Below, one piece after another: positions 1,699-31,904 of a DNA stretch of 36,426 nucleotides. The position numbers and the translations under genes are program-made. The DNA comes from Verrucomicrobium sp. BvORR106 (GTDB lineage Bacteria > Verrucomicrobiota > Verrucomicrobiia > Verrucomicrobiales > Verrucomicrobiaceae): NCBI RefSeq assembly GCF_000739655.1, contig NZ_BATR01000097.1:1-36426 (forward strand), read 5' to 3'. Each line of letters opens with the position of its first letter. The stretch's first letter is position 1. The notes beneath the pieces were generated by a model. The model was not told the origin of the DNA. It ran no database searches and saw only the letters and a list, made by a program, of their open reading frames with translations.

Positions 1699-1873
1699 GC
1701 GTGGGGGAAAGGGGTAGCGGGACGAAAGGGAGGAATCTGACAGCAACGCCGCAGGGGCGGGTTCCTGAGAGACCAGACCGGACGTAACCGGGATGAAAGA
1801 TAGGGAGTTCCCGCATTTTGGCGAGTTGAAAGTTGCCAATGTACCCCGGGTACCCGCATGTTATGCTTCCTCC
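1699..1873. promoter_or_regulatory. Divergent promoter region
   Basis: This 175-bp gap separates the start codons of the coiled-coil protein (minus) and the exosortase (plus). It must hold promoters for both if the chosen starts are right. I see no convincing -35/-10 pair and no strong Shine-Dalgarno sequence on either side. The assignment rests on geometry only. Confidence 0.35.
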
Positions 1874-3607
1874 ATGAACCCTGCCTCCACCACCCTTGAT
1901 ACCAAGCTCTCGCCCGCCGTGCCGCAGGGGCGTCGTGTGCCGTGGCTGGCTTTGGGCACAGGGGTGGGCGTGCTGATTGTGCTTTTCGCCATCTGGCCGT
2001 ACCAGCACTGGCAGTTTGCCCGGCGCGGGAGCGTGCTGGAGGGCTGGTACAAGGTGCTCACCCTGGCGGACAATGCCGAGTGGCAGTTCTGCTTGTTCGT
2101 GCCGTTCATCGTGGGTTTCCTGGTTTACCGCGTGCGGGAGACCTTGGCCCGCCTGCCGATTGCAGGCTCCTGGTCGGGCGCGGTCGTGCTGGGCCTGGCG
2201 GTGATCGCCTACTGGCTGGGATACAAGGTGGACACTGGGTACCTCGGCTTTGCCGCCCTTCAGTTGGCCGTCGCGGGCCTGGTGCTGCTTCTTGCGGGTA
2301 CTGCCTGGATGCGGGCCTTGTTCTTCCCCTGGCTATTCCTCGCCTTTGCCTGGCCCTTCTTCCCCTTGGACAGCCTGCTCGCGGCCAAGCTGAAGATCCC
2401 TACAGCCCAGATCGCCTGCCAGATCCTCTCGTGGACCGGGGTGGACGTGGTGCGGGAGGGCTCCACCGTTCAGTCGGCGGCGAACTTTGCCACCGGCCTC
2501 AAGCAGGGGGCGGCGTTCACCTTTGACGTTTCCGACTCTTGCAGCGGCATGCGTTCCCTTTACGCCCTGATGATGGTGGGGGTACTCTACGGTTACCTCA
2601 GCCTGCGCCGCACGGGTCCCCGGCTTTTGTTGGCCGCCAGCACCATCCCGCTCGCGGTGGCGGGAAATGTCTTCCGCCTGCTCATGCTTGCCGTGGGTTC
2701 GCTGTGGTTTGGTCAGGAGTTTGCCGTGGGCCGCCAGGTGGACGGAAAACAGGTGGATTCCGCCTTTCACCTTTTGGCGGGCTTCATGGTTTTCGGGGTC
2801 GCCTTGGCAGGCATGTTCGGCCTCGCGACACTGCTGGAAGGACGTCATTGGAATCGGCTGAGGCTCTGGGCAGGTTCAGAGGAAAATGCGGCGACTGGCG
2901 TCCGGTTGGAAGAGCGGTTCAATGCCGCCCTGGTGAAGTCTGGCGCAGCCGTCGCCCTGGCTCTGGCAGGGATCGTCCTCTGCTGGACCACTCCGACGGC
3001 TCCGACTCTCGCAGAGCCGGGCCTCAAGATGGAGCTGCCTGCCATGGTGGAAAGTTACCAGAGCATGCAGCTCACCATGACGGCCAAGGAGGCCTCCATT
3101 TTCGAGCCTGGCGTCAAGCTGGACCGCCGTGTGTACGGCAACGGCCAGCGACAGATCCTCGGTACGCTGGTCATGAGCGGTCCGGCCAAAAAGAGCCTGC
3201 ACCAGCCTGATATCTGTCTGCCAAATCAGGGCTGGATCATCGCCAGCACCCAGGAAGTCCCCATCGCCATGAAAGACGGCCGGTTCAAGAAAGTCACCCT
3301 CATGCGCGTCTTCCGCGATCAGGAGACTTCGCCTGGGGTTCGCGTCCGATCCTGGGGTCTCAACATCTTCTGGTATGAGGGCTCCAGCGGGGTCAGTACT
3401 CCCAGCTACCTGATGAGCAATTTCATCAGCTATCGCGACGCGATCCTCTTCAATCTCAACCACCGCTGGGGCATGGCCTCCTACTTCATGCGCCTGCCGG
3501 ACAAGGAGCTGGGTGTGGTGGACACGGACCCCTTGGGCGAGCTCCAAGCCATGGATGCTCTCATGCAATTCGTCTCCGCTTCGCTGCCCGCCATTGTGGT
3601 GGATTAG
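1874..3607 (+). CDS. Exosortase with fused C-terminal EpsI domain
   Basis: This 577-residue protein is a multi-pass exosortase. It cleaves C-terminal sorting signals of PEP-CTERM-like exported proteins at the inner membrane. The catalytic set is visible: Cys223 in DSCSGMRSL, Arg268 in GNVFRLL and His299 in FHLLAGF, each in or near a hydrophobic helix. About eight membrane segments fill residues 25-325. From about 355 there is another membrane segment and then an EpsI (DUF3485) domain with SLHQPDICLPNQGW at 441-454, matching the family's H-x-P-x-x-C-L-P-x-x-G-W signature. The ATG at 1874 is chosen over an upstream in-frame ATG at 1793, which would give a non-membrane extension. No substrate with a PEP-CTERM-like tail occurs in the window. 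The subtype is not settled; verrucomicrobial XrtC/XrtD types are candidates. Confidence 0.92.
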   Translation: MNPASTTLDTKLSPAVPQGRRVPWLALGTGVGVLIVLFAIWPYQHWQFARRGSVLEGWYKVLTLADNAEWQFCLFVPFIVGFLVYRVRETLARLPIAGSWSGAVVLGLAVIAYWLGYKVDTGYLGFAALQLAVAGLVLLLAGTAWMRALFFPWLFLAFAWPFFPLDSLLAAKLKIPTAQIACQILSWTGVDVVREGSTVQSAANFATGLKQGAAFTFDVSDSCSGMRSLYALMMVGVLYGYLSLRRTGPRLLLAASTIPLAVAGNVFRLLMLAVGSLWFGQEFAVGRQVDGKQVDSAFHLLAGFMVFGVALAGMFGLATLLEGRHWNRLRLWAGSEENAATGVRLEERFNAALVKSGAAVALALAGIVLCWTTPTAPTLAEPGLKMELPAMVESYQSMQLTMTAKEASIFEPGVKLDRRVYGNGQRQILGTLVMSGPAKKSLHQPDICLPNQGWIIASTQEVPIAMKDGRFKKVTLMRVFRDQETSPGVRVRSWGLNIFWYEGSSGVSTPSYLMSNFISYRDAILFNLNHRWGMASYFMRLPDKELGVVDTDPLGELQAMDALMQFVSASLPAIVVD

Positions 3608-6571: not shown

Positions 6572-6937
6572 TCAGCGTCCCAATCCGCTCTTCCATCCTT
6601 CCGCCGCGGCTTTGGCGACGGTCCTCACCGCCTCCTGGGTGCCCTGGGCGACGTCATGGGTGGCATCCACGATCACCGGAGTCTGCTCCGCCGCGACATA
6701 CCGCGATAGGGATCCAAGAAATCCCAAGGCTGTCATCGCGAATCCTACGAACACCAGCGGCGAGCCGACAAAAAAACACCAGAACAAGGTGGGCTCGTCG
6801 TGCATGTCTCCGAACGCTACGAAGAAGTCGATCAGCGAGGCGATGATGAATCCGATGCCAATCAGCAGGCTGGTCGGTCCGGCGATCCGCAAAATCGTGC
6901 GTACGGCCTGGTGTTGGGATGTCTGCAACCGGCTCAT
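6572..6937 (-). CDS. Small two-helix membrane protein of unknown function
   Basis: This 121-residue protein has two hydrophobic segments (about 18-40 and 51-74) joined by an acidic/aromatic loop (GDMHDEPTLFW). An amphipathic, Ala/Gly-rich C-terminal tail follows (about 85-121). I recognise no family. It is the first of two minus-strand genes ending at the terminator region near 6170. The gene-free stretch upstream (6938-7471) separates it from the next gene. Confidence 0.6.
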   Translation of the reverse strand: MSRLQTSQHQAVRTILRIAGPTSLLIGIGFIIASLIDFFVAFGDMHDEPTLFWCFFVGSPLVFVGFAMTALGFLGSLSRYVAAEQTPVIVDATHDVAQGTQEAVRTVAKAAAEGWKSGLGR

Positions 6938-7112
6938 AATTTTCTCTATAGGGGGATGCTAACTTGGGTGACTTTCGGTGACAAGGCGAAAGGGAGGGGC
7001 TGGCGAGGCCCCGATGGGGTTGGTGCTTACCGCAGTCCCCAATCCCGAACTGAAATGCACGATGCAGGACCCAAGCGGAGGTCGCCCCTGTGTCCTCAAA
7101 ACGGCCTCCTCC

Positions 7113-7209
7113 ACGCCAACGGCGTGATACATAAGAGCCCGGGGTCAGACCGCGAAGCGGTCGCCACCCCGGGTATCGATGGGCTGGCGATGGAACTCCA
7201 AGGGAGTTC
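7113..7209 (+). repeat. Three-hairpin element, left copy
   Basis: There is no gene in 6938-7471; this element and its inverted partner fill its centre. Hairpin 1 is ACGCC-AAC-GGCGT (7113-7125). Hairpin 2 is CCCGGGGT/ACCCCGGG (7138-7145 with 7166-7173), with an inner GACCGC-GAA-GCGGTC stem (7148-7162). Hairpin 3 is GAACTCC-AAG-GGAGTTC (7193-7209). All stems are perfect. The same three-hairpin order appears on the opposite strand at 7285-7383 and at 21822-21919 with different stem sequences. Confidence 0.75.
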
Positions 7210-7284
7210 TACAGACCGTCCAGATCACCTGGAGACGACTATCCTACATGCGGTGGAACATCAGGGAGGCGGTCATGGTTTGTA

Positions 7285-7383
7285 GAACTCACTTCGTAGT
7301 TCCGGTCCCCCGCCCAAGTACCCAGGGTGGCGGCTCGTGCCTCGCCTTACCCTGGGCTACTTTGTTTGACGCCCTTGGCGTCA
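7285..7383 (-). repeat. Three-hairpin element, right copy (inverted)
   Basis: Read on the minus strand, hairpin 1 is TGACGCC-AAG-GGCGTCA (7367-7383). Hairpin 2 pairs CCCAGGGT with ACCCTGGG (7349-7356 with 7320-7328). Hairpin 3 pairs GAACT with AGTTC (7285-7302). After hairpin 3, AGTTCTACA is shared with the left copy. Stem bases differ from the left copy in both arms, so pairing is kept by compensatory changes. The two copies face each other across about 75 bp. Confidence 0.72.
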
Positions 7384-7471
7384 GAACACTTGCGTTTGGA
7401 CCTTTAACCTGGGTGCGTATGCGCTTCGTGTGATCAGGGCGTAGGGGACGGGGAGTGAATTGGGTGTGGGT

Positions 7472-7681
7472 TCACCATCCGAACAAAAGATTGCGAACAA
7501 CCCATCGCAGTCGGCCCCACCTCCCAAGCGTGTCACGCTTCCATAGTGCTGACAGAATCAGCAAAGTGATGAAGAGCAACCCGGCCGCGAGTGGAGCAAA
7601 GTAGACCAAGGCGGCAATCGCTCCCGTCACCAGCAAAGTGAGGGTCAAGGCGATCCATTCGAGACGGTCTGGCCGTTTCAT
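7472..7681 (-). CDS. Small two-helix membrane protein
   Basis: This 69-residue protein has two closely spaced hydrophobic segments (about 8-24 and 26-43) and a basic, Trp-rich C-terminus (KRDTLGRWGRLRWVVRNLLFGW). I recognise no family. The ATG at 7681 is chosen because the frame upstream to 7834 would overlap the divergent gene and has atypical composition. It is divergent from the membrane protein at 7803, with a 121-bp gap. Confidence 0.5.
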   Translation of the reverse strand: MKRPDRLEWIALTLTLLVTGAIAALVYFAPLAAGLLFITLLILSALWKRDTLGRWGRLRWVVRNLLFGW

Positions 7682-7802
7682 GATTGAGAGGGGAGCAGCT
7701 GGGGACAGCTTGGGTAAGGTAGCGTCCCGGCGAAACTGTGTCAAAAAATCCGATGGAGCCCGATGAACATAGTCTTGATCGCGAAAGTCTGATTTTACGC
7801 CT

Positions 7803-8153
7803 ATGAGTGAGGTCGCCAAGATGCTGTTCACCATCGCCGCTCCGGCGGCCGCCTTGATCAGCTTCGTGGCGTATGACCGGTTTGTGAAGCGCTTTGCGGA
7901 GGAGCTTCCGGAGATCTGGCGACTGAAGAATTGTCCTTTGGGTTTCTTGTGGAGACCTGTAGAGGGCGGTTCATGGAAAGGGCATCAAGCAAGACAGACC
8001 TTTCTCGCGGAAGTAAGCTTTGGGGTGCCAAAATGGATGAGAGCGCATCCTGGAGTGGTGAAAGCCCTTCGGTTCTATCACGTGACCTATTGGTCGTTCT
8101 TGATTTTGAGCCTGCTCATTCTGCTGCTGATTATGTCCAGAAGTCTTCGGTAG
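7803..8153 (+). CDS. Small membrane protein of unknown function
   Basis: This 116-residue protein has an N-terminal hydrophobic segment (about 5-24), a soluble central part with WRLKNCPLGFLWRP, and a second hydrophobic segment near the C-terminus (about 94-112, rich in Leu and Ile). The layout suggests two membrane helices with a central loop. No named family is recognised. It converges on the DUF1552 gene, 140 bp away. Confidence 0.55.
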   Translation: MSEVAKMLFTIAAPAAALISFVAYDRFVKRFAEELPEIWRLKNCPLGFLWRPVEGGSWKGHQARQTFLAEVSFGVPKWMRAHPGVVKALRFYHVTYWSFLILSLLILLLIMSRSLR

Positions 8154-8293: not shown

Positions 8294-9592
8294 CTACACG
8301 AGTTCGTTCATCACCCCGGTGCTGCTACCGAACTTGTCGGTCTCCACACCCATTTGTTGGAGGAGGGTGACGAAGAGATTGCAGAGGGGCGTGTTGTTGT
8401 CGTGCTTGAAGGCGTAGTGCTGGCCGTGCTTCAGGCCTCCGCCGCTGAGGATGATGGGGAGGTTGGTGTTGTCGTGCTTGTTGGCGTCGCCCATGTTGCT
8501 GCCAAAGAGGACCATGGTGCGGTCCAGCAGCCGGTCCGCGCCTTCGCGTTTGGAGGCGAGGTTCTGGATGAGGCTGTTCAGGATCACCATCTGTTGGCGG
8601 TCGGCATCGGCGAGCTGGCGGACCTTGTCTGGGGCCTGGCCGTGGTGGCTGAGTCCATGATAGCCCTCGGTGGTGTCGGCATCATCATGGATCTTGAAAG
8701 CCGGGGTGGCGAACGCGTCCACCATGAGCGTGACGATGCGGGTGGAGTCTGACTCAAAGGCGAGCTGGGCCATGCTGAGCATGAGTTCCAGTTTGTCGAA
8801 GATGAGCTTCTTGTCCTGAATGTCCGTGGGTTCGGGCAGGGCGGTGAGGGGCTTGGGCTTCAGCTCCCACTCGCGGGCGGTGACGAGGCGTTCCTCCACT
8901 TCCCGCACGGAGGTCAGGTACTGATCCAGTCGGGCACGATCCTCACTGCCGAGAGTGCGGTTGAGGCTGCCCATGTGGTCCCTGAGGGTGTCCAGGATGC
9001 TGCCTCGTTCATCCAGGCGGTTGAGCTGCTTTTTAACTGCCTCGGGATCGCCCTGGACGAACATGCGGCGGAAGAGGGCGGTGGCGCTGTCTTCGGCGGG
9101 GAGCAACACGCCATCGCGGGTCCAGGAGAGGCTGCGGTTGGCCTTGTCAATATTGACGCCGAGGTTCAGCGTGGGGAAGCGGGTGAGCTGGCCGAGCTTT
9201 TCCACGGCATGCTGGTCGAGCGAGATCTGGTTGCGGAAGCCGCTCTTCGTAGGCCCACGGGCGGCCGTGAGGAAACAATTCTCCGCGCTGTGGCCACCGT
9301 TCACATCCGGGTGGGAGATGCCGCTGAAGATGCTGAACTCGCTCCGCACATCGGCGAGAGGGGAGAGGGTGGGCGTTAGTTCATAGTCACGTCCCGTGGC
9401 GGTGGGGAAGAAGGGCTTGGGCAGGAAGCCGAGGTTGTTTGAGATGAGCAGCATGCGGCGGGGCGTCTTCGCTTCCACAGCCCGGCCGAAGACGGGCGTC
9501 ATGCATTCGAGCAGCGGCAGGGCCAGGGTGACCCCGGCGCTGCGAAGAAAGCGGCGGCGGGAGAAAGGCCTGGCGATGTAAGGGGAGTTCAT
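8294..9592 (-). CDS. DUF1552 family exported protein
   Basis: This 432-residue protein belongs to DUF1552, a family common in Planctomycetes, Verrucomicrobia and Myxobacteria and usually encoded next to DUF1592-type cytochromes. It has a Tat-type signal (SRRRFLRSAG at about 11-20, then a hydrophobic stretch), so it is probably exported folded. Downstream, phrases such as NNLGFLPKPFFP, SHPDVNGGHSAENCFLTAARGP and GYHGLSHHGQ are typical of the family; its His/Asp residues recall the distantly related sulfatase/alkaline-phosphatase-like DUF1501 proteins. The biochemical function is not established. It starts 33 nt after the cytochrome gene's stop, so the two form an operon and probably act together. 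Confidence 0.9.
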   Translation of the reverse strand: MNSPYIARPFSRRRFLRSAGVTLALPLLECMTPVFGRAVEAKTPRRMLLISNNLGFLPKPFFPTATGRDYELTPTLSPLADVRSEFSIFSGISHPDVNGGHSAENCFLTAARGPTKSGFRNQISLDQHAVEKLGQLTRFPTLNLGVNIDKANRSLSWTRDGVLLPAEDSATALFRRMFVQGDPEAVKKQLNRLDERGSILDTLRDHMGSLNRTLGSEDRARLDQYLTSVREVEERLVTAREWELKPKPLTALPEPTDIQDKKLIFDKLELMLSMAQLAFESDSTRIVTLMVDAFATPAFKIHDDADTTEGYHGLSHHGQAPDKVRQLADADRQQMVILNSLIQNLASKREGADRLLDRTMVLFGSNMGDANKHDNTNLPIILSGGGLKHGQHYAFKHDNNTPLCNLFVTLLQQMGVETDKFGSSTGVMNELV

Positions 9593-9625
9593 GAAATAAA
9601 GAAGGAAGGTGGCGCTCGAAGTTGA

Positions 9626-12190
9626 TCAAGGGTTGCCGCGGAAGATGCGGCTCTTCACCAGGACGAGCAGGAGGTCCTGCACGCGATAGCCGTTGGCGGC
9701 GCAGGCATCGAGCAGGGACTCGATCTCCGGGCGGTCAGAATAGCGGACCGGGGTGCCCGTGGCGTAGAGGGTAAACTGATGGAGGACATTCCGGCCGAGT
9801 TGGCGGGAATCGGAGGCAAGGATCTCCTTCAGTTCGCTCACGTCCTTGAAGGCGGGGCCGTTCAGGAGTTTGGCGCTGGCATCCACGGGACCCGCCAGCG
9901 TGTAGCTGAAGTCGTGTCCCGCCCGATCAATGCCGCTGATGGGCTCTCCCTCCTCCAGGCCGCGATAGCGGGCGCGCCAGCCACCCAGGATGTCAAAGTT
10001 CTCCAAGGCGAAACCCACGGGATCAAACCGGGCGTGACAGGCGGCGCAGGATTTGGATTTGGTATGAAGGTCCAGAAGAGCGCGAATGGTCTTCGCACCG
10101 CGGATGTCCGGCTCCACGGCTGCTACACTGGGCGGTGGTGGCGGGATGGGCTTGCCGATCAGACGCTCCGTGACCCAGGCGCCGCGGACGACGGGGGAGG
10201 TGGTGGTGCCATTGGAGCTGACTTTCAGCACCGCAGCCTGGGTCAGCAAGCCGCCAAAGGGGCTGTCGGCAGGCACGGCCACCTTCCGCATGGCGGAGCC
10301 AGTCATGGGAGGGAGATGGTAGTGGCGGGCAAGGCGATCGTTGGCAAAGACGAAGTCCGACTTCACCAGGGCGCTAGCAGGGAAGTTCTCGCGCACCATG
10401 GCGGTGAAGAAAGTGCGGGTCTCCCGCTCCATGCTCTCCACGAGGTACTCGTCAAAGCGATACTCAGGAAACAACCGGATGTCGGGGTCATCACGGCGAA
10501 TGTGCCGGAGGCTGAGCCAATAGTCGGTGAAGCTTTTCACGAAACGATCAAAGCCCGGCCCGCCGATGAGGCGTTGAGTTTCTTCTCGGAGAACCTTCGG
10601 ATCCTGCAGCTGGCCCTTCGCCGCGAGTTCGAGCAGGCGGGCGTCGGGACGGGAGTTGGTGAGGAAATGGGAGAGGCGGGACGCGATGGCGAAGGAGTCA
10701 GATGCGGCTCGGGGCTCGCGCAGAAAGATGAAATCGCCTGAAGCCAGGAACGCTTTGTAGCCTGCCAGCATGGCTTCGACAAAGGTGGCACCCTTGCCCA
10801 GCCGCTGCTGGATGAGGGCGTCAAACTGGGCGAGATCCTCCTCCGACACGGGTTCTCGTGCGGCGAAGGTGACAAAGCGGCGCAGGAGCCGTTTTGCTTC
10901 CTCGGGAGCGTTTGCGGGTTTCACCTCGATGCCGTAGTCATCAAACAGGACGTGGTGCGAGGCGGGAGGCCAGGTGGGCGGGGCGAGGGGGCCTTCGACC
11001 TCAAGCCACTGCACGGCGATGCCAGGTTGTCCTCCCTCTGGGAACGGGGGATATCGATAGGAGGGGGCAGATCCATTCGGGTTCCTCGCCAGGGGCATGG
11101 GCAGTCCCAGCAGGCTGTACTCAAACGACTCGCCCTCCCGCAAGCGAACGGTGGTTTCATAGACCTGTTGTTCGGGTTGGACGTCGATGATGCCTCCTTC
11201 AGCCCGCACCTCATTGATGATGTCGGCGCCGGCAGGTTTGCGGGTGCGGAAGGTCAGCGGGACGGAGGCCTTGGCCGGGATGATCACGTAGCCGGGCTGC
11301 TGGAGCACGGCGCGCGCAGAGATGCGCACCCGGTAGTGGCCGGAGTGTTTGGCGAGGATGTCTTTGGGGGTGCCGATGTAGGGCCAGCTCGCTGAGCGAA
11401 AGAGCGCCATCTCGATGCTCTCGTCCGTGGCCCCTTGTTTGATAGCGGCTCTCTCTGCGTCTTTGCCTTTGAATGCGCCCCAGTCGATGAACTTGCCATC
11501 GCGGGCGAAGAACATGGACTCGCGATTGCCAAAGGTGCCAGTTTCCGGAAAAAGACGTGTGCCGATCACCCGCCATTTGTTCACCGGGGGTGGGGCAGCT
11601 TCCGTCATCATCGCGGCCCGCAGGGCGGTCTCTGCCGCATCCAGATAAGCGGTGAGTTGCACGCGCGACATGTCGAGCATGGCAGTGGTCTTGTTGAAGT
11701 GGTGGCCTTCGCGGTCCTCGGGCAAAATGTCGCGTACCTCCAGATCCGGCAGATGCAGGACATCGCGCAGGTTCTGCTCGTACTCATCGCGATTCAGCCG
11801 CCGCACGGGACCTCGGCCGTGGGACTTCACATCGGCGAGGTCAATCTTTTGGAGTTCGTCACCCAGGGATGCGACGAGGGCCGCGCGATCGGCGGCGGGG
11901 AGGTCCTCCGCGTTGGGAGGCATCTCCCCCTTTTCCACCCGATCATGAATGCGCACCCAGCGCTCCCTCAATGAGCGGTCGGCGAGGTCGTAGGGGAGCG
12001 CAGTGAGATCGAGACCGCCTTTTTGCACATCCTTGTCGTGGCACTCGAGACAGGTCTGATTGATGCGCGAGGCAACCTGGTCGGTAGCCGAGGCGTGGCA
12101 GGGCAGAGTCGGTAACAGGGTGACCAACGCAAGCAGGCTGCTTGTGTGAAAATACTGAATCGGGGCTTGGCTGACAGGAAGGAACGGCAT
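9626..12190 (-). CDS. DUF1592-type planctomycete/verrucomicrobial c-type cytochrome (PSCyt/PSD protein)
   Basis: This 854-residue protein has the typical PSCyt/PSD arrangement. There is a signal peptide (about 1-35), then a heme c site CLECH (Cys47, Cys50, His51) followed by a GGLDL segment. The PSD3 (DUF1587) part carries RRLNRDEYEQNLRDVL. A beta-rich middle is followed by PSD5/PSD4 (DUF1595/DUF1592) sequence with SRLSHFLTNSRPD. A PSCyt3 (DUF1588) part has a second CXXCH, SCAACHARFDPVGFALENFD, and a C-terminal PSD2 (DUF1585) part follows. It probably carries two hemes in the periplasm. The ATG at 12190 gives a proper signal peptide; a GTG at 12289 would add 33 residues. It forms an operon with the DUF1552 gene. 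Family members have been suggested to be oxidoreductases acting on complex substrates; the substrate is unknown. Confidence 0.92.
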   Translation of the reverse strand: MPFLPVSQAPIQYFHTSSLLALVTLLPTLPCHASATDQVASRINQTCLECHDKDVQKGGLDLTALPYDLADRSLRERWVRIHDRVEKGEMPPNAEDLPAADRAALVASLGDELQKIDLADVKSHGRGPVRRLNRDEYEQNLRDVLHLPDLEVRDILPEDREGHHFNKTTAMLDMSRVQLTAYLDAAETALRAAMMTEAAPPPVNKWRVIGTRLFPETGTFGNRESMFFARDGKFIDWGAFKGKDAERAAIKQGATDESIEMALFRSASWPYIGTPKDILAKHSGHYRVRISARAVLQQPGYVIIPAKASVPLTFRTRKPAGADIINEVRAEGGIIDVQPEQQVYETTVRLREGESFEYSLLGLPMPLARNPNGSAPSYRYPPFPEGGQPGIAVQWLEVEGPLAPPTWPPASHHVLFDDYGIEVKPANAPEEAKRLLRRFVTFAAREPVSEEDLAQFDALIQQRLGKGATFVEAMLAGYKAFLASGDFIFLREPRAASDSFAIASRLSHFLTNSRPDARLLELAAKGQLQDPKVLREETQRLIGGPGFDRFVKSFTDYWLSLRHIRRDDPDIRLFPEYRFDEYLVESMERETRTFFTAMVRENFPASALVKSDFVFANDRLARHYHLPPMTGSAMRKVAVPADSPFGGLLTQAAVLKVSSNGTTTSPVVRGAWVTERLIGKPIPPPPPSVAAVEPDIRGAKTIRALLDLHTKSKSCAACHARFDPVGFALENFDILGGWRARYRGLEEGEPISGIDRAGHDFSYTLAGPVDASAKLLNGPAFKDVSELKEILASDSRQLGRNVLHQFTLYATGTPVRYSDRPEIESLLDACAANGYRVQDLLLVLVKSRIFRGNP

Positions 12191-12323
12191 GAAGGAAACG
12201 AGTGGCGGCTCCCAGTAATACGGGGGCAGGTGCTCGTTTTTGTCTGACGGTCCCAGCGGATAATCCACCAGGACCTCTCTGGAATCCACATGGGCGCTTC
12301 AAATGGCGGCTTGGATCCTGACG

Positions 12324-21655: not shown

Positions 21656-21821
21656 GGAGGCATCCGTGCTTCAGTTTGATGCTGCGTCTGGCGTAGTCCG
21701 GCTCTGTCTCAGCATCCCCGTGGTTCATCCGCCTCTATCATCTCCTTCCTTCCCTGACTCTCATCGGGAAGTTGGTCCGTTGATATTGATGATCTGATCG
21801 TGTCCCAGTCCGGGCTGCCCG

Positions 21822-21919
21822 ATGCCGAAGGCATGACATCCATTAGACGGAGGTTGAAGGAGCGTAGCGACTGACACCTCCGGAACCTCAACATGGGTAT
21901 TGCATCCCGGAGTGGATGC
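21822..21919 (+). repeat. Three-hairpin element, single copy
   Basis: Hairpin 1 is ATGCC-GAA-GGCAT (21822-21834). Hairpin 2 pairs CGGAGGT with ACCTCCG (21848-21854 with 21876-21882) around a loop with GCGTAGCG. Hairpin 3 is GCATCC-cggagt-GGATGC (21902-21919). The order and spacing match the pair at 7113-7383, but the stem sequences differ. The rest of 21656-21984 has no gene. Confidence 0.68.
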
Positions 21920-21984
21920 CAGCGAGGTCCCTTTGCCAGCGCACCTTGCGGTCACTCCTCCAAGCAACTTCCGACGACACTCCT

Positions 21985-22089
21985 CACCCGTTGACCTCAA
22001 CAAGGCCGAGGAAACTTTCCACGGCTGGCGAAAGCGGCGTCAAGCCGCCGGCACTCCAAGACGCTGGCGCGTTGTTCTTTGTGCCATCT
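21985..22089 (+). repeat. 105-bp direct repeat, left copy
   Basis: These 105 bases match 23701-23805 at all but three positions by eye and in the same orientation, framing the DUF4375 gene. Weaker similarity continues for about 35 bp. The core holds GCGAAAGCGGCGTCAAGCCGC, with GCGGC/GCCGC and GCGTC/GACGC pairings. A diverged core recurs at 31747-31791 and, inverted, at 31867-31904. Confidence 0.85.
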
Positions 22090-22199
22090 GCAGGCTCCCA
22101 TTTGCTCCCGTTCAACATCTTCAGGGCAATCTCTAGCTTTGAAGTGGAACAGCTGGATAGATGGCAATAGGGGCACCATGGGCATAGGGCCGCCCTAGT

Positions 22200-23515: not shown

Positions 23516-23700
23516 TAAGGGGTTCGTTGAAGTTGCTGCGGGAGTAGTCCGGCTGTCCTCAGCCAGTGGTGGGAGCAGGGGGACGACACGACCCATTACC
23601 TTCTCACGGCTGGCCGCCCCCGACCCCAGTAGGGCGGGCACTTCGCCTGCCACGAGCGTCTCCTGAAGTTACCTCGTCTCGCTCTCCCGAGGGCAGGCCT

Positions 23701-23805
23701 CACCCGTTGACCTCAACAAGGTCGAGGAAACTTTCCACGGCTGGCGAAAGCGGCGTCAAGCCGCCAGCACTCCAAGACGCTGGCGCGTTGATCTTTGTGC
23801 CATCT
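23701..23805 (+). repeat. 105-bp direct repeat, right copy
   Basis: This near-identical partner of 21985-22089 has three differences: C/T, G/A and T/A. It lies 185 bp after the DUF4375 stop. Short open frames crossing it (containing ESGVKPPALQDAG) are shared by both copies and are judged spurious. The stretch 23516-23964 has no gene. Confidence 0.85.
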
Positions 23806-23904
23806 TCATGGATCCCATCTGTCCCAGTTCAATATCTCTCCAGATCGGTTCCCACATCGCGAAGCGTCTGGGCAGGTCTCTGGGCCACGGGTCAGTAAAA
23901 GGAG

Positions 23905-23945
23905 CGAGGGACATTCCTGTCCCGGTTCGAGGCCAGAGTCCCATG
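23905..23945. repeat. GGGACATTCCTGTCCC repeat, copy 1
   Basis: GGGACA-TTCC-TGTCCC is a perfect 6-bp hairpin at 23908-23923. The surrounding 40 bp, with a shared GTCCCATGA end, recurs at 26031-26072. No T-run follows. Confidence 0.6.
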
Positions 23946-23964
23946 ACGTCGCTTCTTCTGTCGC

Positions 23965-25981: not shown

Positions 25982-26030
25982 AGAGTGATGACTCAATGGA
26001 AAGTACCGGTGCGCCAATCAGTAACAGGAA

Positions 26031-26072
26031 GGAGGGACATTCCTGTCCCGGTCCCCTGCGAGCGTCCCATGA
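26031..26072. repeat. GGGACATTCCTGTCCC repeat, copy 2
   Basis: This partner of 23905-23945 has the same palindrome at 26034-26049 and a shared GTCCCATGA end. It lies in the gene-free stretch 25982-26341 between the CheY-like gene and the HtrA gene, which converge. Confidence 0.6.
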
Positions 26073-26239
26073 GGCCCTTTCAAGCGAGTGCGTAGCGCAG
26101 TCGCTGTGCATTCATTAAATCAAGCAACGGTGATCAATCACCCATTGTCGTGCCGGAATGTGCAGCCGAATCCGGGACTGGAAAGTCCCTACCTCCGTTT
26201 GCTGACAGTCCCTGTCATCCGCCATATTCATAAGCCAAA

Positions 26240-31664: not shown

Positions 31665-31746
31665 AGGAAGGAGCGGTCAGATAGCTTTGGGCGATGCCAG
31701 GTCTCTTACCCCTTGAATGATTTAAGATCTAGGAAATTACAATCGA

Positions 31747-31904
31747 CTGACGAAAGCCGTGTCAAGCGGCCAGCACTCCAAGACACTGGCGTGAATCAGG
31801 ACGGGCCTTGTCAAAATATCCATCTACGGCCTGCGTCGATCCTCCCACCGCATCCCGCTACGCGAAGCGTCTTGGAGTGCCGGTGGCTCGACACCGCTTT
31901 CGCC
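31747..31904. repeat. Inverted pair of the 105-bp repeat core
   Basis: 31747-31791 carries a diverged version of the 105-bp repeat core (GACGAAAGCCGTGTCAAG, then CAGCACTCCAAGACACTGG). 31867-31904 carries the same core on the opposite strand (GCGTCTTGGAGTGCCGG, then GACACCGCTTTCGCC). The stretch 31514-31999 has no gene; these copies and the 27-bp repeat are all that I see in it. Confidence 0.7.

Follow-up and report, generated by a model that had tools for sequence, protein, structure and literature searches.

Inverted pairs of three-hairpin arms in a Verrucomicrobium genome as likely single-strand DNA substrates of a subclass 1.2 TnpA

The DNA analyzed here, which we call the window, is a stretch of 36,426 nucleotides from Verrucomicrobium sp. 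BvORR106 and makes up contig C113 of a genome assembly of 8,693,933 bases in 209 contigs. At positions 7112-7383 it contains an element that lies between two small open reading frames (6572-6937 and 7472-7834), for neither of which a Pfam match was found. The element consists of a left arm (L) and an inverted right arm (R), and each arm carries three hairpins in the order H1, H2 and H3, with H3 facing inward (Table 1). Two such facing copies had been described in a first-pass annotation made from the letters of the window, and their coordinates and stems proved to be right. Its statement that each stem still pairs holds for the stems that it reported but not for the right-arm H3', where one base breaks the sixth pair; most aligned R copies read GAACTC..GAGTTC at this place. 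The two compensatory changes that it had seen between the arms are present as well, namely C-G versus G-C at the outermost pair of H1 and G-C versus A-T in H2. The L and R arms of the window show 71% pairing over 63 nt, and a folded segment of 301 nt gave a z score of -6.8 (0 of 100 shuffles equal), with the fold dominated by L-R pairing.

Table 1. Features of the element at 7112-7383 and related features of the window. R1 is a covariance model of window-family arms.
Feature	Position	Strand	Sequence or basis
Left arm L	7112..7218	+	R1 match 7111-7225, 121.9 bits
H1 of L, then linker to H2	7112-7117 / 7121-7126		CACGCC / GGCGTG
H2 of L, Y-shaped (7138-7173)	7138-7145 / 7166-7173		CCCGGGGT / ACCCCGGG
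Inner hairpin within H2 of L	7148-7153 / 7157-7162		GACCGC / GCGGTC
H3 of L, after spacer (7193-7209)	7193-7199 / 7203-7209		GAACTCC / GGAGTTC
Foot motif of L, 3' of H3	7210-7217		TACAGACC
Central spacer between L and R	7219..7278	.	Own-genome copy lengths
Right arm R, inverted	7279..7383	-	R1 match 7269-7383, 107.9 bits
Foot of R and H3'	7285-7302 (H3')		TTTGTA (foot)
H2' of R (7321-7356)	7321-7328 / 7349-7356		CCCAGGGT / ACCCTGGG
H1' of R (7368-7382)	7368-7373 / 7377-7382		GACGCC / GGCGTC
Possible degenerate outer TIR	7404..7424	.	TTAACCTGGGTGCGTATGCGC; by eye, one indel; weak
Single three-hairpin arm of another family (transposase gene L004)	21820..21934	+	76.7% identity to L004 upstream arm

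Three copies had been counted in the window by the first-pass annotation; the third is real but belongs to the family of the transposase gene L004 described below, to whose arms it is 77% identical. Other features of the window include a repeat, GGCGAAAGCGGCGTCAAGCCGCCGGCACTCCAAGACGCTGGCG, found at 21968-22092, 23684-23808, 31724-31791 and 31866-31904 (about 79-97% alike, partly inverted), and a 64-nt repeat with two copies that are 80% alike (23892-23955 and 26018-26081) and a near-palindrome, GGGACATTCCTGTCCC; a string similar to the latter occurs in the flank of the locus L020. The Pfam-annotated stretches 1793-3607 and 8294-12289 hold an exosortase EpsH gene with DUF3485, and a DUF1552 gene adjoining a planctomycete-type cytochrome (PSCyt/PSD) gene.

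When the left arm was used as the query of a DNA search, 46 matches were obtained in the same genome, the query included. The argument for selection on structure would have suffered if all copies were identical recent duplicates; 39 of the 45 non-query matches are 81-97% identical to the query and the remaining six, which are shorter or weaker, 73-83%, so that the copies are not all of that kind. The covariance-model search proposed in the first-pass annotation was run with R1, which we built from 41 window-family arms out of those fetched from this genome. With 150 of 5143 first-look candidates scored, it returned at least 105 matches at E<=0.01; 91 reached 75 bits or more, and 14 scored below 58 bits. 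In the R1 search across genomes, there were 97 matches in the BvORR106 genome, 62 and 35 in two near-complete congeners that are similar to it in size, and 2 in a third, fragmentary congener; at E<=0.001, 20 of the 38 genomes searched (BvORR106 included) had at least one match. Among 30 fetched loci of the BvORR106 genome, 26 have L with an inverted R (two with a partial R) and four have L only, and of the 24 copies with the right end located, 21 have an L-R length of 270-274 nt and three one of 280-292 nt. By approximate coordinates, 2 of 22 of the 26 composites overlap an ORF of at least 200 aa by more than 100 nt, compared with 62 of 110 random placements. The organization is thus REPIN-like: multi-copy inverted pairs that are intergenic.

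The same genome has 18 matches to Y1_Tnp (PF01797), several of which are pieces of one frame, and seven matches to a profile of the protein type described here. Flanking repeats were scored for five of these genes (L001-L005), with two further profile-matching genes left out. L005, a 151-aa HUH/Y1 transposase gene on contig C106, lies between two inverted arms that belong to the window family, and each of L001-L004 has its own inverted three-hairpin repeat of other sequence (E 1e-19 to 5e-32). The paralogous genes are divergent, and they are far outnumbered by non-autonomous L-R pairs. Upstream of L002 (L002:550-1440), we also observed several apparent L002-family arms about 200 nt apart.

All five proteins contain DHVH (DHAH in L002), WQ and YIxxQxxHH motifs and exceed the cut-off of NF033573 (NCBIfam IS200/IS605); for NF047646 (REP-associated, RAYT), the best of the five reached 29.1 bits versus a cut-off of 80. 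An AlphaFold2 model of L039 with 36 relatives had a pLDDT of 90.8, and a Foldseek search with this model placed the ISDra2 and IS608 TnpA proteins best and TnpAREP (4er8) 30th. A profile search of PDB sequences gave the same IS200/IS605 picture (E 6e-14). By NF033573, the PDB profile and the fold, the protein is an HUH/Y1 TnpA of IS200 type. Its motifs match those of subclass 1.2 of Quentin et al. 2018, which is characterized by DH[IV]H, WQ and YIKNQKEHH, a length of about 148 aa, low copy number and divergent paralogues (PMC6006769), with DHAH as the variant in one of the five. The nearest named relative of the transposase is in Verrucomicrobium sp. BvORR034, and a plasmid search for the gene matched 2 of 72,556 records.

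At least 80 related genes were found in a scan of species genomes, many of whose records are metagenome bins with labels that can be wrong. The listed relatives and the five genes of BvORR106 make 85 loci, of which 82 could be evaluated, three with short flanks being left out. Among the matches listed, flanking inverted repeats were present at E<=1e-6 in 69 of these 82 loci (64 of 77 named) and lacking in 13, while in the controls this was so for 3 of 82 mismatched pairs and for 0 of 76 placements within the same locus; at E<=0.01, the numbers were 73 loci versus 11 mismatched pairs and three same-locus placements. By record title, the phyla are Verrucomicrobiota, Planctomycetota, Acidobacteriota, Bacteroidota, Deltaproteobacteria and Armatimonadota. 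The arms are about 85-120 nt long, and those listed share a common layout: H1 is followed by a linker (mostly 10-13 nt, usually ending in (T/C)AGCC), H2 of about 8 bp, a spacer, and H3 beside the gene. A three-hairpin filter (H1-H2 6-24 nt, H2-H3 12-45 nt) passed 72 arms from 47 of the 69 loci, and in these the H1-H2 spacer is 6-14 nt, the H2-H3 spacer mostly 18-29 nt, and H2 mostly 8 bp. Exactly three hairpins were found in 38 of the 69 upstream arms by a simple stem rule and in 30 of 69 by alifold; by automatic rules, the three-hairpin plan is common but not universal. The arm of the window hence belongs to a family of repeats, arms of this type flank HUH/Y1 genes with subclass 1.2 motifs, and the anatomy recurs across phyla. 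That such repeats flank HUH/Y1 genes, here and in distant bacteria, suggests what the substrate of this orphan enzyme may be.

The covariation noted in the window had been read as a sign of selection on structure, and the wider set of arms supports this reading well beyond the two changes in the window. Stems were predicted from the upstream arm alone and then examined in its downstream counterpart, where 955 pairs were unchanged and 91 were changed on both sides and still paired, while 27 were changed on one side and paired, 81 were broken by a change on one side and 10 by changes on both. At least one fully compensated pair was present in 44 of the 69 loci, and double changes made up 48% of all changes versus 14% in slid controls. 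In an alignment of 42 arms, which are those of the 72 with short H2 loops, 93.4% of cells pair, and there are 148 both-side-changed cells versus 44 in shuffled data, with 0 of 500 shuffles reaching the observed number. Inside the window family, the covariation comprises few events: 4 of 26 pairs covary, and three of these are L-versus-R differences. The outermost pair of H1 is C-G in 22 and G-C in 19 of 41 rows, and the changed pair of H2 is G-C in 21 and A-U in 19 of 41 rows; since both changes are nearly fixed between L and R, each amounts to about one event.

We also compared the sequences at the feet of the hairpins. The match between the sequence 3' of H1 and that 3' of H3 in the same arm has a mean of 4.0 versus 2.55, the highest of 200 shuffle means being 2.85, and a foot score of at least 5 is reached by 33% of the 72 arms versus 4% of mismatched pairs, counts in which the two arms of a locus are not independent. 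The foot motifs differ by locus; the word of the window family is TACAAA, with TACAGA at H3 of the window left arm. On the complementary strand, the foot word sits 5' of each hairpin, and it may act there as a guide, since the guide of IS200/IS605 and REP is located 5' of the hairpin (PMC6006769).

The co-occurrence of arms and genes was examined in 115 genomes of the phylum with the protein profile and with R2, a generic model of the arm whose training set consisted of arms flanking such transposase genes. Both were found in 11 genomes, the arm only in six, the gene only in three and neither in 95 (Fisher 5e-9, or 3e-8 without the BvORR106 genome, in a test without control for genome size). 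The R2 search scored at most 38 candidates per genome under stricter filters, and its match numbers are lower bounds. Among the 113 matches listed from genomes other than BvORR106, inverted neighbors within 700 nt have the '+-' orientation (H3 inward) in 16 of 17 cases. The same polarity is seen in G003, a genome of the window's genus, where 45 of 47 close pairs have H3 inward and 38 of the 45 have exactly 32 nt between the model ends; this analysis used 122 of 144 matches, with two at 45.4 and 45.0 bits missing and two slightly lower ones kept.

A relation to the replication strand was seen in G116, a complete genome of one 5.73-Mb contig. Here, 71 of 75 composites follow the GC skew, being '+' where the skew is positive and '-' where it is negative, and 0 of 300 label shuffles reach 71. 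The search had scored 150 of 3323 candidates, so its match numbers are lower bounds; 100 of its 148 matches were used (E<=5e-9), and 75 of these were selected by their length of 98-107 nt, most of them representing one asymmetric composite. The other 25 tend the opposite way (7 agree, 18 disagree). The switch points were fitted at 2.3 and 5.2 Mb, with a grid step of 100 kb for the data and 200 kb for the shuffles, and the skew measured in 20 sampled regions agrees with them. Near-identical copies are scattered round the chromosome, and the flanks of the fetched copies are of few, partly shared types; the mobile unit in G116 may therefore exceed the core, its ends are not fixed, and the independence of the insertions is uncertain. 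Of 37 fetched G116 copies, 32 have TTTTGA (21) or TTTTCA (11) before H1, but many of these have flanks in common. A reading of the G116 ends as sharp was dropped as confounded by the few partly shared flank types. In G003, the strand bias was not significant for either the window family (12 of 18 favored, p 0.32, for 18 of 24 places, without the six close to the putative origin) or the other family (27 of 44, p 0.22), so the replication-strand evidence does not extend to the window. For comparison, IS608 and ISDra2 target the lagging-strand template (PMC6006769).

The extent of the unit was examined in the flanks of the BvORR106 copies. An outer block ending in GCGCATGCGCGTCAGGTTAAC scores above shuffles in 16 of the 30 flanks on the left and in 10 of the 24 on the right. 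Conserved outer flanks were considered as the ends of the element itself and rejected, as they look like a TIR-bounded block that is present in part of the copies. A separate TIR-bounded repeat of about 230-400 bp has GCGCATGCGCGTCAGGTTAAC at both ends and differing cores (copies at C80:67098-67398 and C163:8271-8499; in the window, 7404-7424 may be its right end); some of its copies carry L-R, and one (L132) seems by eye to interrupt an L001-family arm. Because of the flanks with an outer block above shuffles, part of the spread of the element may be due to another transposase. The element could also be a conventional TIR-bounded MITE moved by a double-strand (DDE) transposase, with the outer GCGCATGCGCGTCAGGTTAAC as its real ends and the three-hairpin arms as passengers, as the outer block, the TIR pairs that also bound an unrelated core, and the possible degenerate right TIR seen by eye in the window would all suggest. 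In the window copy (L009), the right flank scores 18 for the outer block versus 16 in shuffles, and an ungapped scan did not report the outer TIR. We consider this origin improbable in view of eight copies without a clear outer block (L010, L012, L020, L022, L026, L027, L034 and L037), which are at or below shuffle level on both sides, except for a marginal L010 left (20 versus 18). These copies keep an L-R length of 270-291 nt and a common L-R core, while their flanks are similar in 0 of 28 pairs, so the core appears to form an independent unit, at times carried within another repeat. By eye, no such TIR was seen beside the arms of L005 either.

The vertical inheritance of the arms as immobile, strand-biased landmarks that organize the chromosome, with the transposase as a domesticated binder, would fit the strong strand bias in G116 and the several element sites common to the BvORR106 genome and its congeners. 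It is very improbable given the near-identical copies at dispersed G116 sites, the eight core copies with unlike flanks, the spread of 97, 62 and 35 matches over three genomes of similar size, and the absence of a significant bias in G003. A structured RNA or RNA regulatory element (an sRNA, a 3' UTR stabilizer or a bidirectional terminator) kept for its RNA fold would account for the stable stems and the intergenic location, and seven of the nine BvORR106 copies with a scored ORF on both sides lie between convergent ORFs. However, over the element no Rfam family reached its gathering score (four weak matches below the threshold, the best at E 0.53, were dismissed), such arms are inverted around transposase genes in distant phyla, and G-T occurs in 2 of about 586 paired cells, loop-closing pairs excluded. 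A near-absence of G-T wobble is unlike usual RNA and is expected for DNA hairpins; it could serve as a simple marker to tell selection on single-strand DNA from selection on RNA. Maintenance for an RNA fold is accordingly very improbable, although the element may later have been used as a terminator or stabilizer. The first-pass annotation had left the choice between a structured RNA and a single-stranded DNA transposition intermediate; a single-stranded DNA substrate is favored because the arms flank HUH/Y1 genes and their stems are nearly without G-T, and the RNA alternative is without support from Rfam.

A clean empty site was not found in the two congeners at the loci tried, because those intergenic stretches have turned over wholesale: the congeners G003 and G001 have other sequence in place of the window locus, and the C58 and C135 sites correspond to shared filled sites or have rearranged flanks. 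The G001 locus that replaces the window element (G001:C63, L173) contains an ORF that by eye resembles an HUH/Y1 RAYT-like protein with the motif NHVH.

We therefore propose that 7112-7383 is likely to be a non-autonomous, REPIN-like single-strand DNA element that is mobilized in trans by a subclass 1.2 TnpA. The earlier view that no formal family name applies needs changing accordingly, to a REP/REPIN-like partner of an IS200/IS605-type TnpA. In a single-stranded region, for example at a replication fork, each arm would fold into H1, the 8-bp H2 and H3. TnpA would recognize H1 and H3 via the short foot motif that the two hairpins tend to share, the complementary-strand motif 5' of each hairpin being guide-like as in IS200/IS605 and REP. 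H2 would act as a spacer, which might allow a TnpA dimer to bind H1 and H3 at once, one with each half. The L-R pair would mimic an H1-H2-H3-gene-H3-H2-H1 locus minus the gene and would be cut and pasted, or copied, in trans, and every one of the paralogous TnpA proteins would have an arm family of its own. In this scheme, we infer the exact ends, the target site and the binding of the TnpA dimer to H1 and H3. We give about even odds to a broader proposal, a pan-phylum system in which subclass 1.2 TnpA reads a bipartite single-stranded site, with the same locus-specific guide at H1 and H3 and an 8-bp H2 between them, and in which a genome holds several mutually specific TnpA/three-hairpin sets (five examined here), each spawning its own non-autonomous pairs. 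A three-hairpin partner makes the activity of subclass 1.2 directly testable and would explain a class of repeats in Verrucomicrobiota and neighboring phyla, and several parallel TnpA/arm pairs in one cell offer a chance to study shifts in the recognition of hairpin feet.

The system resembles REP/BIME/REPIN sequences and their RAYT (TnpAREP, class 2 Y1) in having high-copy, intergenic, palindromic inverted pairs related to repeats that flank HUH/Y1 genes, and on one strand the window-family H3 carries GTAG at its 5' foot, as REPs do. In contrast to a REP, which is one palindrome of 20-40 nt, the arm here comprises three hairpins in about 85-120 nt; the protein has Y---Q--HH and not the Y---NP of RAYT; and the GTAG foot (GTAG or GTGG in REP) is not general here because the feet differ by locus. 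With IS200/IS605 elements (IS608, ISDra2), the system shares the TnpA fold, the HUH/Y---Q motif, the guide-like placement of the foot and, in one genome, a strand bias. However, IS200/IS605 elements have one subterminal hairpin per end, whereas here there are three per end and the ends form an inverted repeat; in addition, the L-R pairs far outnumber the genes, and the paralogous genes are divergent. In IS200/IS605, insertion takes place 3' of a short target of fixed sequence, which is not duplicated.

Subclass 1.2 is treated in PMC6006769 as an HUH endonuclease group set apart as not sharing IS properties, generally without the typical terminal structures of IS200, and is listed there with 'no' for REP. 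The genes described here depart from that account, as far as the text cited goes, in having three-hairpin flanks, so that the description 'no REP-like structure' does not apply to them, and in their range: subclass 1.2 is assigned mostly to Cyanobacteria and Bacteroidetes (PMC6006769), and genes with its motifs occur also in Verrucomicrobiota, Planctomycetota, Acidobacteriota and others. Di Nocera et al. 2013 (PMC3733652) described long inverted repeats flanking tyrosine transposase genes under the names TIRtrons/TIRYT, and the presence of inverted repeats next to such genes is therefore not new as such. Some TIRtron repeats are partly or wholly self-complementary and some belong to repeated families; one sharp TIRYT group is acidobacterial, and GTAG REPs were reported in a verrucomicrobium (PMC3733652). 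The acidobacterial TIRYT group may overlap the genes described here, which differ from TIRtrons, as these are described in the text of that paper, by the three-hairpin ruler, the paired feet and the subclass assignment. In the open-access literature, with preprints and most subscription papers outside its range, we found no link of subclass 1.2 to hairpin repeats. The text cited from PMC6006769 and PMC3733652 contains neither the arrangement in three hairpins nor the paired feet, the connection with subclass 1.2 or the strand bias of these repeats. If the proposal holds, the bipartite system would be a third kind of Y1-mobilized repeat beside the ends of IS200 and the single-hairpin REPs.
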